This document shows, piece by piece, positions 22,378 through 27,595 of a stretch of 43,465 nucleotides of DNA. This DNA comes from Nitrospinaceae bacterium (GTDB lineage Bacteria > Nitrospinota > Nitrospinia > Nitrospinales > VA-1): contig CP070799.1 of assembly GCA_020343535.1 (NCBI GenBank), positions 1,824,209 through 1,867,673 on the forward strand. The letters run 5' to 3'. The position numbers and the translations under genes are program-made. Within the stretch, counting starts at the first letter, position 1; every line of letters begins with the position of its first letter. The notes below the pieces were generated by a model. That model searched no databases. It worked only from the letters and a program-made list of their open reading frames with translations, and was not told the origin of the DNA.

Positions 22378-23058
22378 ATGAAAGTTTTTCAGAAAAATAA
22401 CCGAAAGCGATACAGCTGGCGAGTGCCCGCCCTGGCGTTACTTGTTTTTGCGCTAGGGCCTGGGGGAGATGCCCTGGCGGAAGAGCCGGGTTATGGCATA
22501 AGGGAAACAGAAGTCATATCCGGAAGCGGTTTGACGCCGGTTCAGCATCGAGGCCCTCCCGAAGGCCGAGGCCCAAGGCATGGCCGGGGCGGTGGGCATT
22601 GCCCGGAAATGGATAAACGTGGGGGCTGCCGGGGCGGCATGGGGCACCAGGGTGGCATGGGGATGCATCATGGTGGCGGCCAGGCCGGATCGGCCCTATG
22701 CCCGCAGCCCAGGCAAACGGTGCAGGCGCCGGATGAATTTTATAATCTCGTTAACCCGCTGGGAAATACCGCCGACAATATAGAAAAGGGCCGGCTGCTG
22801 TTCTCGCTGGACGTGCAACCCACTTGCGTGATGTGCCACGGTGCTCAGGGAGACGGAACGGGCGGGTTCGGCGCCGATATGAGCCCGAAGCCCAGGAATT
22901 TCACTTGCGCCGAAACCATGAGTCCCATTCCGGACGGGCAGCTTTTCTGGGTCATTCGGAATGGTTCTCCAGACACTGGCATGCCGCCGTTTCAGGATTT
23001 GAGGGACGAGCAGATCTGGCAATTGATTCTCTACATTCGCAGCCTCGGCGGCCAGTGA
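22378..23058 (+). CDS. Monoheme c-type cytochrome with His/Gly/Met-rich linker
   Basis: 226 residues from ATG 22378, the first start placing a signal peptide (about residues 10-33) at the terminus; it is preceded by AAGGTG. A low-complexity linker (about 58-103) rich in G, H, M, R with two C-containing spots could bind metal. Then comes the shared module: C108-P-Q-P-R, heme site C150-V-M-C-H154, C177 in N-F-T-C, and D-G-Q-L-F-W-V-I-R-N-G-S ... M-P-P-F with axial Met. Periplasmic electron carrier; partner unknown. Confidence 0.88.
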   Translation: MKVFQKNNRKRYSWRVPALALLVFALGPGGDALAEEPGYGIRETEVISGSGLTPVQHRGPPEGRGPRHGRGGGHCPEMDKRGGCRGGMGHQGGMGMHHGGGQAGSALCPQPRQTVQAPDEFYNLVNPLGNTADNIEKGRLLFSLDVQPTCVMCHGAQGDGTGGFGADMSPKPRNFTCAETMSPIPDGQLFWVIRNGSPDTGMPPFQDLRDEQIWQLILYIRSLGGQ

Positions 23059-23110
23059 TGCCGGTACGGGGCAACCGGTTGAAATAATGATATTACAAGG
23101 AGGGGACGAG

Positions 23111-24526
23111 ATGGATTTTACGATGGACCGACCGCATCGCCTGCTCGCGTCGCTGTTGCTAGGCATTTTCCTGTTGCCCGCGCCGCTGTTTGCCGCCGAG
23201 GCGGGCCTTGGCGAACGCCTGGTCAAGGAACAATGCGTGACCTGCCATAAATTCGAAGGCGAGCCGGAGTCCAAATTCAACCTGAAGGGTCCCGACCTCA
23301 TGTGGGGCGGAAATAAATACCAGCGGCCCTGGTTGATTCGCTGGCTCACGGGAAAGGAAGAAAACCTCTATCCCAACGGTTACCGCTGGGACAAGGGCAC
23401 GGGCCCCCAACCGCACGTGGTGTTGTCACAAGAAGGCGCCGAGTCGGTGGCGGACTACTTTGAAAAAAACCTTCTCGATCCCCGGATCAAAAAGAGCTTC
23501 GTCGATCTGTCCACCTTGACCGAGATGGAGGCCGCCTTCGGCGCCGAGATTTACAAAAAGTTTTCCTGCCTGGGATGTCATCAGATCAAGGAAGACGGTC
23601 AAAAAATCGGCGGCCCCATCAGCGTCACCCTTTATGACGCGGGAAATCGTTACAACCTGGACTGGTGGTCGCGGTTCGCTGAAAACCCGCAGGATTTCAC
23701 CCCGCACAGCGGCGAATACCTGGCCGACCTCAGCATGCTGGGGGCCCGCTACATCATTGGCTACCTGATGATCCTGGGCGTCGAGGACTTCAAGTATTTT
23801 GAACCCTGGAAAACAGATCACTTCAAAAAGGCCGACTCTAAACGAGGCGCCACCGTTTACAAGGAATACTGCACGCAGTGCCACGGCGCGAAGGGGGAAG
23901 GTGACGGGCCCGGCGCGGCGGGGCTTGAGCCGAAACCCGCGGTGCACGCCAAGATGGCGCTCAGCCAATTTCCCGAGGACTATCTTTACAACGTCATTTA
24001 CTACGGCGGAAAAAGCGTCGGCAAGTCGCCCAACATGCCCGACTGGGGCCTGACCATTCCGCCTCAGGGCATCGCGGACCTGATCGCTTATTTAAGGGAA
24101 ACCTTCAAGGGGGACGCGGGGGCCGAAGCGGCTCCAACAGCCACCGCCAAAGCGCAAACCGGGGATTGCCCGCAACCGAGGAAAACCAAAAAGGTTTCTT
24201 CGATCCTGTTCAACAAAAAGAATCCACTGAAGCCCACGCCCCCGAATCTGGAAGCGGGCAAGAAGCTGTTCCATAAAACAGCGAAACCCATGGCTTGTGA
24301 ATTGTGCCACGGTAAAAAGGGCGATGGCCGTGGGCCGGGCGGTGCCGGAGTGACCCCCAAGCCGAGAAACTTTACCTGCCAGGAAACCATGAATGGTGTT
24401 CCGGATGGGCAACTGTACGGCATCATCAAAAAGGGTTCTCCGGGCACGGCGATGCCGGCGTTCATGAATCTCAAGGATAAAGAGATCTGGCAGCTGGTTC
24501 TTTACCTTCGCGAGTTTGCCAAATAA
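23111..24526 (+). CDS. Tetraheme c-type cytochrome, C-terminal domain of the local family
   Basis: 471 residues with signal peptide (1-29). Four heme sites: C42-V-T-C-H, C153-L-G-C-H, C254-T-Q-C-H and C396-E-L-C-H. Domains 1-3 are class I-like, with domain 3 having the G-D-G-P-G-A-A-G-L-E-P-K-P wording of common periplasmic cytochromes. After a linker (about 335-350) the last domain is the local module with C353-P-Q-P-R and C423 in N-F-T-C, fused to the others. ATG 23111 follows AAGGAGGGGACGAG. Four hemes in one chain suggest a wire between an unknown donor and acceptor. Confidence 0.9.
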   Translation: MDFTMDRPHRLLASLLLGIFLLPAPLFAAEAGLGERLVKEQCVTCHKFEGEPESKFNLKGPDLMWGGNKYQRPWLIRWLTGKEENLYPNGYRWDKGTGPQPHVVLSQEGAESVADYFEKNLLDPRIKKSFVDLSTLTEMEAAFGAEIYKKFSCLGCHQIKEDGQKIGGPISVTLYDAGNRYNLDWWSRFAENPQDFTPHSGEYLADLSMLGARYIIGYLMILGVEDFKYFEPWKTDHFKKADSKRGATVYKEYCTQCHGAKGEGDGPGAAGLEPKPAVHAKMALSQFPEDYLYNVIYYGGKSVGKSPNMPDWGLTIPPQGIADLIAYLRETFKGDAGAEAAPTATAKAQTGDCPQPRKTKKVSSILFNKKNPLKPTPPNLEAGKKLFHKTAKPMACELCHGKKGDGRGPGGAGVTPKPRNFTCQETMNGVPDGQLYGIIKKGSPGTAMPAFMNLKDKEIWQLVLYLREFAK

Positions 24527-24591: not shown

Positions 24592-25051
24592 ATGAGACTG
24601 AAGACGTTTGGTAAAGGCTTTGGGATTGCGGCCATCGCGGTTTTAATATGTTGTGGCGGGGGAACTCTCACGGCTGCGGCCTCGAAGCAGTGTCCGCAGC
24701 CTCGGTTCACCGAAAAAGCGCCGGATGATATCTACAATGTGCAAAAATCCCTTAGAAGCGACTGAAGAGAACCTCAAAAAGGGCAAGATGCTGTATCTGG
24801 TCAAGGCGAAGCCCCTGCCTTGCAAGCATTGCCATGGCCTTAGCGGCGACGGTATGGGACCCATGGCCCGGGGGTTCGACCCGCCTCCCAGGGACTTCAC
24901 CTGCGCAAAAACTATCAAGGGAGTTCCCGATGGGCAGTTATTTTGGATTATCCAGAACGGTTCTCCTGGAACGGGCATGCTGGCCTTTAACGGCCTGAAC
25001 GACGAGCAAATCTGGCAGGTGATACTCTACATTCGGCAACTGGCGAAGTGA
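24592..25051 (+). CDS. Monoheme c-type cytochrome of the local family, frameshifted
   Basis: ATG 24592 follows CGGAGG and opens a signal peptide (about residues 5-29) and C34-P-Q-P-R. At about 24739-24743 a run of 5 A shifts the frame and leads to a stop within ten codons. Four A would continue as N-P-L-E-A-T-E-E-N, the wording of its paralogues, and give 152 residues. The rest has the heme site C-K-H-C-H (tgc at 24821), F-T-C (corrected C104) and D-G-Q-L-F-W-I-I-Q-N-G-S-P-G-T-G-M. The next gene starts 14 bases after the stop. Confidence 0.86.
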
Positions 25052-25065
25052 CGAGGCGAGAGCAC

Positions 25066-26472
25066 ATGACAGGAAAAAAGATCGTGATCGTGGGTGGGGT
25101 CGCAGGTGGGGCAATCGCCGCGGCCTGCGCGCGCCGGCTGTCTGAGGATGCAGAGATCATCATTCTCGAACGGGGTGCTTTTGTCTCGTTTGCCAGCTGC
25201 GGTCTCCCCTACAGTCTCGGCGGTGAGGTCGAAAATCAGGACGACCTGCGGGTGCAAACTCCCGCGAGCCTTCGCGAGCGCTACAACCTCGAAGTGGCGG
25301 AGCAACTCCATCATCGCGGGCTGAAGGTCGTGCTGGTCGAGGCCGCGAGGCAGGTGATGACCTCCTTCGATCCGGAGATGGCCGTCTGGCTTGAGCGGGA
25401 AATGAAGGCCAAGGGCCTCGGCCTGCACCTGGGCGAGCCCGTCGTCGGTTTCGAAACGCCGCAAAGGGGCGAAGACGCCCTGGCGTCTACGGTGGTGCTC
25501 CAGTCTGGCGCCCGCCTTCCGGCGGATCTCGTTATCCTCGGGCTAGGTGTGCGCCCGGAAACCGGACTGGCCCGAGCCGCCGGCTTGAAGATCGGCGACT
25601 TGGGCGGCATCCGGGTCGATGACGAACTCAGGACCAGCGATATCCATATTTGGGCGATTGGCGATTGCATCGAAGTGACCGACGCGGTGACGGGCGATCC
25701 CGCCCTTCTCCCCCTCGCCGGGCTCGCCAACCGGCAGGGCAGAATCGCAGCGTACAATATTTTTGGTGCGGGCAAAAAATGCCCCGGCTCCCTGGGAACG
25801 GCCATCGTGCGCATGTTCGAGCTGACCGCCGCCCGCACCGGCGCGAGCGAAAAAACGCTTCGCCAGGCGGGCCGGCCCTGCGAGGCCGTCCATCTGCATC
25901 CTTTCTCTCACGCGGATTACTACCCCGGAGCGGAGCGGCTGGCGCTCAAAGTGATCTTTGACCCGGGGACCGGCAGGCTTTTAGGGGCTCAGGCAGTGGG
26001 CAAAAAGGGGGTGGACAAACGCATCGACATTCTGGCCACGGCGCTTAAAGCGGGCATGACGGTTTCCGACCTGGTGAACCTGGAACTGGCCTACGCGCCG
26101 CCGTTTAGCTCCGCCAAGGACCCGGTGAACCTTGCGGGCATGGTGGCCGAGCACGTTTTGAGCGGGGAGATCGCCCAGGCCCATTGGCACCACATCGCCG
26201 ACCTGGATGATCAAAAAACGGTTCTTCTCGACGTCAGAAGCCTGAAGGAGCGTGAAAGAGGATTCATCCCGGGTTCGATTCATATTCCGCTAGGCGAGCT
26301 TCGCCAGCGGGAGGGCGAACTCTCGAAGGATCGGGAAATCATTTGTCATTGCCAGACCGGACAACGCTCCTATATGGCGTGCCGGTCCCTCAGCCACCTG
26401 GGTTTTCGGGTCAGAAACCTCATGGGTTCTTATCGAACCTGGCAAGTGGTCAAGGAGAATGTCGTGAAATAA
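25066..26472 (+). CDS. CoA-disulfide/polysulfide reductase with rhodanese domain, internal deletion
   Basis: 468 residues from ATG 25066 (GAGGCGAG site). Flavoprotein disulfide reductase of the CoADR/Npsr type, which reduces CoA-disulfide, persulfide or polysulfide with NAD(P)H, fused to a rhodanese domain. The FAD site G-G-V-A-G-G, catalytic C45 in S-F-A-S-C-G-L-P-Y, A-I-G-D-C for FAD, and the dimer domain with Y-Y-P-G-A are present. The C-terminal rhodanese has C429 in C-H-C-Q-T-G-Q-R-S. At residues 77/78 (about 25294), where Y-N-L-E-V meets A-E-Q-L-H-H-R-G, about 90 residues of the family are missing in frame, including the NAD(P)H G-x-G-x-x-G. The flavoenzyme is probably unable to use NAD(P)H; rhodanese activity may remain. 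Confidence 0.87.
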   Translation: MTGKKIVIVGGVAGGAIAAACARRLSEDAEIIILERGAFVSFASCGLPYSLGGEVENQDDLRVQTPASLRERYNLEVAEQLHHRGLKVVLVEAARQVMTSFDPEMAVWLEREMKAKGLGLHLGEPVVGFETPQRGEDALASTVVLQSGARLPADLVILGLGVRPETGLARAAGLKIGDLGGIRVDDELRTSDIHIWAIGDCIEVTDAVTGDPALLPLAGLANRQGRIAAYNIFGAGKKCPGSLGTAIVRMFELTAARTGASEKTLRQAGRPCEAVHLHPFSHADYYPGAERLALKVIFDPGTGRLLGAQAVGKKGVDKRIDILATALKAGMTVSDLVNLELAYAPPFSSAKDPVNLAGMVAEHVLSGEIAQAHWHHIADLDDQKTVLLDVRSLKERERGFIPGSIHIPLGELRQREGELSKDREIICHCQTGQRSYMACRSLSHLGFRVRNLMGSYRTWQVVKENVVK

Positions 26473-26528: not shown

Positions 26529-26556
26529 TTGATAATCAGGGGGAATGTAAAATAAT
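26529..26556 (+). promoter_or_regulatory. Promoter of the DUF1264 gene
   Basis: TTGATA (26529-26534), 16 bases, AATAAT (26551-26556), about 25 bases before the ATG 26582. Both boxes match 5 of 6 consensus bases. Confidence 0.6.
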
Positions 26557-26581
26557 GCCACTCATGATAAGGGAGGTAGTT

Positions 26582-27097
26582 ATGAAATTTTCAATCAAGT
26601 CTGCTCTTATTACAAGCGCGGGCGCCCTGCTCGCATTCTCGCTGGCGGCGGCTCCGGCTCTCGCCGCCGGCCCGGCGGGCGGTTACGACATCCACGTGCA
26701 GGCGCCGCACATGATGCACGATGGAACGGTGGGCGGACCGTTTCATCATTATTGCAAGGGCATCAACGACCAGATTCTGCAATGCCTGTTGTTCGAATCC
26801 ACCGACCCGAAAGCGCCCTTGGTAGCCATCGAATATTTCGTGTCGAAGGATCTATCGCGCAAGCTGCCGCGAATCCAGTGGCACCGGTTTTTCCACGATC
26901 ATAAAATAGAGATCGCCACCGGCCGCGTGCAGGTGCTCGACGTGCCCGCCGATCAGGCCAAAGCAATCGCCGATGCGGCGGCCAAGACCGACGGCGTGAT
27001 CTATCATCTCTGGCAGGAGGGCCAGGAATTCCCCGACGGAACCGTGACGTTCCCGCAGTCTCTGGGCCATTCCTTCCCGCAGCACAATGGTGAATAA
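26582..27097 (+). CDS. Exported DUF1264 (OBAP-like) protein
   Basis: 171 residues from ATG 26582 after GGGAGG. The signal peptide ends A-L-A-A (about 28). The body has the DUF1264 wording: H-H-Y-C-K-G-I-N-D-Q-I-L-Q-C-L-L-F-E-S, then V-A-I-E-Y-F-V-S, then H-R-F-F-H-D-H-K. The family has no known activity; plant members (OBAP1) are oil-body associated. His and two Cys in the first motif may bind metal. It has its own promoter and a terminator, so it is probably monocistronic within the cytochrome cluster. Confidence 0.83.
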   Translation: MKFSIKSALITSAGALLAFSLAAAPALAAGPAGGYDIHVQAPHMMHDGTVGGPFHHYCKGINDQILQCLLFESTDPKAPLVAIEYFVSKDLSRKLPRIQWHRFFHDHKIEIATGRVQVLDVPADQAKAIADAAAKTDGVIYHLWQEGQEFPDGTVTFPQSLGHSFPQHNGE

Positions 27098-27148: not shown

Positions 27149-27595
27149 ATGCGAAACGTCTTAAAAGCGGGATGCCTGTTCGGGCTTTCGGCCTTCCTGT
27201 GGCTGAACCCGGCGGCGATCGAGGCGGTGGACCCGGAAGTGCTGATTCCCCGCGTGCCCGAAGATCAGATGGCGGAAGCCAGAAGCTGGAAGAACCCGTA
27301 TCCCGCGACGCCGGAAAATATTGAAAAGGGCGAAGCCATTTTTTTCGGCAAGGGGTTTTGCGTCACCTGCCACGGCAAGGACGGCAAGGGGCTTAACATC
27401 GAAGGCCTGCGTGGCAAGCTGCCGAGAAATTTCACCGATGGCGAGTGGCAGGCGGCGCGCGCTGACGGCGAGCTTCTGTGGATTCTGAAAAACGGTTCCA
27501 AGGGCACCGCCATGGCGCCGTTCATCCCTCTCGTCCTGACCGAAGACGAAGCCTGGCACGTGCTGCTCTACGTGCGCTCGCTGGGGAAAAAATAA
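27149..27595 (+). CDS. Monoheme c-type cytochrome, divergent member
   Basis: 148 residues with signal peptide (about residues 1-26) and a GAGGGAG site. The heme site is C71-V-T-C-H75. The C-terminal half (D-G-E-L-L-W-I-L-K-N-G-S-K-G-T-A-M ... V-L-L-Y-V-R-S-L) aligns with the other cytochromes of the cluster. It lacks both extra cysteines: no C-P-Q-x-R, and N-F-T-D replaces N-F-T-C. Its joint loss of the two suggests that they work together in the others. Soluble periplasmic electron carrier. Confidence 0.87.
   Translation: MRNVLKAGCLFGLSAFLWLNPAAIEAVDPEVLIPRVPEDQMAEARSWKNPYPATPENIEKGEAIFFGKGFCVTCHGKDGKGLNIEGLRGKLPRNFTDGEWQAARADGELLWILKNGSKGTAMAPFIPLVLTEDEAWHVLLYVRSLGKK

Follow-up and report, generated by a model that had tools for sequence, protein, structure and literature searches.

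Persulfide Reductases with a Rhodanese Domain

The NADH-dependent persulfide reductase (Npsr) of Shewanella loihica (3nta/3ntd/4ocg) consists of FAD, NADH and dimerisation domains followed by a rhodanese domain, with a catalytic cysteine in the sequence SFANCGLPY and another cysteine in the rhodanese domain. Similar enzymes are the CoA-disulfide reductase-rhodanese of Bacillus anthracis (3icr), the CoA-persulfide reductase 8a56 and the Npsr of Archaeoglobus fulgidus, a member of the CoADR-Rhd family whose turnover needs NADH in published assays (PMC7969121). Here, a member of this group with a large in-frame deletion is described from a Nitrospinaceae bacterium. The window, the whole stretch of DNA that was analysed, comprises 43,465 nucleotides (G000:C1:1824209-1867673) of an assembly, G000, that is a single 2.53-Mb contig with a completeness of 86.5%. 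The product of positions 25066-26472 is identified as an NADH-dependent persulfide reductase/CoA-disulfide reductase with a C-terminal rhodanese domain. Its best PDB match is the S. loihica Npsr (E 7.7e-134), and the families of 3icr and 8a56 are the second and third most similar. The gene and its parts are the following:

25066-26472, plus strand: persulfide reductase gene, deleted allele (468 aa), assigned from Pfam, PDB matches and 82% identity to the intact 558-aa orthologue of G001
25066-25286, plus strand: remaining N-terminal FAD segment, with GGVAGG, E35 and the catalytic C45 (SFASCGLPY)
25287-25296, plus strand: deletion junction, the one remaining copy of a 10-bp direct repeat, CCTCGAAGTG; 270 nt (90 codons) are missing
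25297-26160, plus strand: second half of the NADH domain, second FAD segment (AIGDC, PLAGLANRQG) and dimerisation domain
26200-26445, plus strand: rhodanese domain with the CQTGQR loop and C429 (Pfam Rhodanese, residues 379-460)

The ATG at 25066 is preferred, by homology, over a longer GTG start at 25048, and the 468-aa protein carries no signal peptide. Its Pfam matches are Pyr_redox_2, which covers only positions 155-278 of 291 (2-281 in the intact orthologue), Pyr_redox_dim (4-105 of 110) and Rhodanese, while the match to the Pyr_redox profile begins at position 11 of 82, compared with position 1 in the intact orthologue. The FAD motif of the GxGxxG type (GGVAGG, residues 10-15), the single catalytic cysteine in SFxxCGLPY, the dimerisation domain and the rhodanese domain with its active-site cysteine are thus all present, and the frame is open through 468 codons. 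The protein lacks an NAD(P)H Rossmann domain with GxGxxG and a complete FAD domain with the (A/S)TGA motif. The cut-off of NCBIfam TIGR03385 is missed even by the intact orthologue (443 vs 578.8), and this family is not diagnostic here. AlphaFold2 models made from two-row alignments reached a pLDDT of 33 for the deleted and 32 for the intact protein, too low for any structural conclusion.

The Deletion and Its Junction

In a pairwise DNA alignment, the window gene differs from the intact gene of G001, a genome of the same genus, by a single gap of exactly 270 nt, and the in-frame loss of about 90 residues proposed from the sequence alone is thereby confirmed. Against the Shewanella enzyme 3nta, phmmer likewise returns two pieces, in which residues 4-83 of the query match chain residues 2-79 and residues 74-461 match 163-563, leaving the middle of the family alignment empty. 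The missing piece corresponds to residues 75-164 of the intact protein. It takes in the last part of the first FAD segment (beta-meander and LILSTGA), followed by the linker and by VVVGGGFIG, which belongs to the NADH domain; scored alone, it matches positions 69-154 of Pyr_redox_2. The NAD(P)H GxGxxG therefore lies within the 90 missing codons, as had been claimed, and C45, C429 and the open frame are indeed kept. The accompanying statement that the FAD site is preserved is only partly right: GGVAGG, E35 and AIGDC remain, but the beta-meander and the second FAD motif region (LILSTGA) are deleted.

The short homology suspected at the ends of the deletion was also found. In the undeleted G001, two 10-mers, CCTCGATGTG on the left and CCTCGAAGTG on the right, are identical at nine of ten positions and are spaced 90 codons apart, and a single copy is left in the window. 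The ends read AA-CCTCGATGTG-CGG and GG-CCTCGAAGTG-GCG in G001, and the window reads AA-CCTCGAAGTG-GCG. The two copies of this repeat, CCTCGA[T/A]GTG, code for LDV and LEV. A junction inside a 10-bp direct repeat indicates slippage or short-repeat recombination. The deletion is present in the assembly, and we infer that it is a true genomic event.

Distribution among Relatives

Relatives were sought in a phylum sample of 77 genomes, in which G001 is the nearest relative of G000. Strong homologues occur in 18 of the 77 genomes, G000 included, with 19 strong matches overall. Only the G000 protein aligns in one piece through the junction; none of the other 18 homologues in this sample has the junction form, and all align around an intact middle. 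In the relatives with 60-66% identity, this middle has 91 codons and the repeat is poorer, with 4-8 of 10 matches. No second copy of the reductase gene is found in G000, and neither the lost 90 aa nor the lost 270 nt can be traced elsewhere in that assembly, whereas the DNA query does recover G001. The sequence-only reading had held that relatives with the missing bases would speak for an assembly collapse. Such relatives exist, yet they are equally expected whether the deletion is specific to this lineage or the assembly is at fault.

The 24.7-kb contig of G001 is largely collinear with window positions 2654-32045, with divergence as expected. Between G000 and G001, the gaps in 173 non-overlapping best HSPs (54,178 aligned residues) are nearly all of 1-6 residues, and across the roughly 175-190 ORFs compared, no internal deletion exceeds 43 codons except that of the reductase gene, which speaks against chance. 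The rarity of large gaps suggests that clean large deletions are no habit of this assembly. The other large deletion relative to G001, of 43 codons and accompanied by two in-frame TAG stops, lies outside the window in a porin-like gene with a CxxCH motif (G000:C1:2128170-2129258), which adjoins an ORF with a rhodanese domain. Near the contig start (G000:C1:7668-16326), the reading frame of three genes is shifted by one or two bases against G001; the sequence towards the contig end may be of lower quality.

Constraint on the Remaining Codons

The assessment of selection rests on pairwise dN/dS and on counts of derived residues. The dN/dS of the reductase to G001 is 0.169, and neighbouring genes have values of about 0.07-0.34. 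When all outgroups are used as polariser, 23 derived residues are assigned to the window lineage and 21 to G001; with G003 alone, the counts are 28 and 18 (two-sided p=0.18). The derived-residue counts thus give no significant signal of relaxed constraint on the window reductase. The rhodanese codons are conserved, and so are the flavoprotein codons. The rhodanese part has 4 window-derived changes vs 8 in G001 and the flavoprotein part 19 vs 13, a difference that is not significant (Fisher p=0.18). Among the columns invariant in 13 outgroup sequences, four have changed in the window protein (N44S, I55V, P220L and G348S) and one in G001. This is suggestive, with numbers too small for a conclusion; N44S, beside C45, is unique to the window protein among 15 orthologues of the order. 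A branch-specific codon model with 9 taxa found no difference (2dlnL 0.15), and a 5-taxon codon-model profile was badly identified, with the omega of G001 at its bound and the synonymous sites of the outgroups saturated.

Since constraint appears unchanged, the loss is probably recent. Constraint that had long been gone would predict many more changes, so a real inactivating deletion would have to be recent on the window branch. Decay is evident from the lesion itself and not from substitutions.

Lesions in the Surrounding Cluster

The reductase gene is part of a cluster with the order response regulator, histidine kinase, DUF4399, cytochromes c, persulfide reductase, DUF1264 and another cytochrome c. 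Much of this cluster is kept, in the same order, in a genome from another genus of the family (G019). The cytochrome c genes ahead of the reductase have the following parts:

23087-24526, plus strand: four-haem (4 x CxxCH) cytochrome c with a hydrophobic leader, intact in the window and broken in G001
24592-24765, plus strand: start of the frameshifted cytochrome c gene directly upstream of the reductase, coding for the signal peptide and N-terminus in a frame that closes at this point, as seen in a three-frame translation and in a DNA alignment with G001
24749-25051, plus strand: rest of the same upstream cytochrome c gene in another frame, with one CxxCH

The upstream cytochrome c gene (24592-25051) is interrupted by a one-base shift near 24749, and this frameshift explains the listed ORF 24653-25051, which is spurious. 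The shifted base adjoins five consecutive A, and a sequencing error could account for it. On the other side of the reductase, the DUF1264 protein (26555-27097) has a leader peptide, 87% identity to its counterpart in the sister genome and a dN/dS of 0.13, and the cytochrome at 27149 starts with a hydrophobic leader. In G001, the damage is found elsewhere in the cluster. The histidine kinase, DUF4399 and the first cytochrome stretch are missing at about 9350-8100 of G001:C170 (orthologous to window 22860-24250), and the four-haem cytochrome is interrupted by a stop and a deletion ahead of its last domain, while the reductase is intact. That two sister genomes have damage in different parts of one cluster speaks for a pathway that can be dispensed with rather than for an enzyme of new design.

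Possible Explanations

The locus probably represents a recent in-frame loss-of-function deletion of an Npsr/CoADR-rhodanese orthologue in a decaying cluster. The 270 nt would have been lost by slippage or recombination between the two copies of the 10-bp near-repeat. With them would have gone the beta-meander and STGA motif that close the first FAD segment, as well as the inter-domain linker and the beta1/GxGxxG start of the NADH domain. From what is known of the family, a product without this segment would be expected neither to bind NADH nor to form a normal FAD fold, and the 468-aa reductase is most likely inactive, as judged from its sequence. A decayed flavoenzyme kept for its rhodanese had been one of the two options originally offered, and its first half, the decayed flavoenzyme, has the best support. 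The cytochrome c/persulfide-reductase cluster as a whole appears to be under decay in the genus, and the event is most likely an ordinary gene loss and not the origin of a new enzyme.

An artefact of the assembly or of strain variation is rather unlikely. The population could be mostly intact, with a consensus drawn from a deleted minority molecule, or the contig could be mis-joined at the repeat. This would agree with the intact gene in relatives, with remaining codons as constrained as in the intact sister, and with a few one-base frameshifts elsewhere in the assembly, of which three fall in the first 16 kb of the contig. However, ordinary k-mer or overlap assemblies would not collapse at a repeat of only 10 bp, the sequence on either side keeps its collinearity with G001, and no comparable clean deletion occurs in about 54,000 aligned residues, the other large one being in a gene with two stops. 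Retention of the short protein as a rhodanese, that is, a sulfane-sulfur carrier on a dimerising, redox-dead flavoprotein scaffold, is improbable. The open frame, C429 with its CQTGQR loop and the lower share of window-derived changes in the rhodanese part would suit it, but that difference between the parts is not significant, other rhodanese-like domains exist in the genome, and stable folding of a scaffold whose core has lost 90 residues is doubtful. There is even less reason to expect a short form that is stable and selected, acting as a cytoplasmic dimer that no longer uses NADH and carries persulfide or CoA-persulfide via C45 and C429 without an electron supply of its own.

A working NAD(P)H-independent reductase fed by another donor, such as the neighbouring cytochromes, is hardly credible. 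Such an enzyme would make sense of the retained C45, E35, GGVAGG and AIGDC motifs and of the adjoining cytochrome c genes; however, the beta-meander and second FAD motif region are deleted as well, the adjacent cytochrome gene is frameshifted, and no relative in the phylum sample has the form. Maturation of CxxCH cytochromes takes place outside the cytoplasm. The four-haem cytochrome and the cytochrome at 27149 both have hydrophobic leaders and look exported, whereas the reductase has no signal peptide, which makes an electron supply from them improbable. The neighbouring cytochromes, which the sequence-only reading had put forward as donors, were therefore rejected on topology and loss of the FAD motif.

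If the loss-of-function deletion is accepted, an enzyme gene has been caught early in its decay, with a clean breakpoint, while two sister genomes are losing the same cluster in different ways. Automatic annotation could label this gene a CoA-disulfide reductase and read it as a capacity for sulfur respiration, which would be wrong.

Comparison with Known Systems

The window deletion has the same pattern as the short-direct-repeat (RecA-independent) deletions of bacteria, in which the intervening stretch and one repeat copy are lost (PMC5426353), but it is deduced by comparison and not observed as an event. Among the described enzymes, 6pfz (NADH oxidase NoxA-3), which is among the PDB matches, looks like the A. 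fulgidus Npsr (PMC7969121); the window protein belongs to the same CoADR-Rhd family but is without the NADH-binding beta-alpha-beta start. The same 90 residues separate it from 3icr and 8a56. With the S. loihica Npsr it shares the order of the FAD, NADH, dimerisation and rhodanese parts and both cysteines, the catalytic one in SFASCGLPY instead of SFANCGLPY, and it differs in the loss of the stretch between about 76 and 166 of the 3nta chain, which includes GGGFIG and LLLSPGA.
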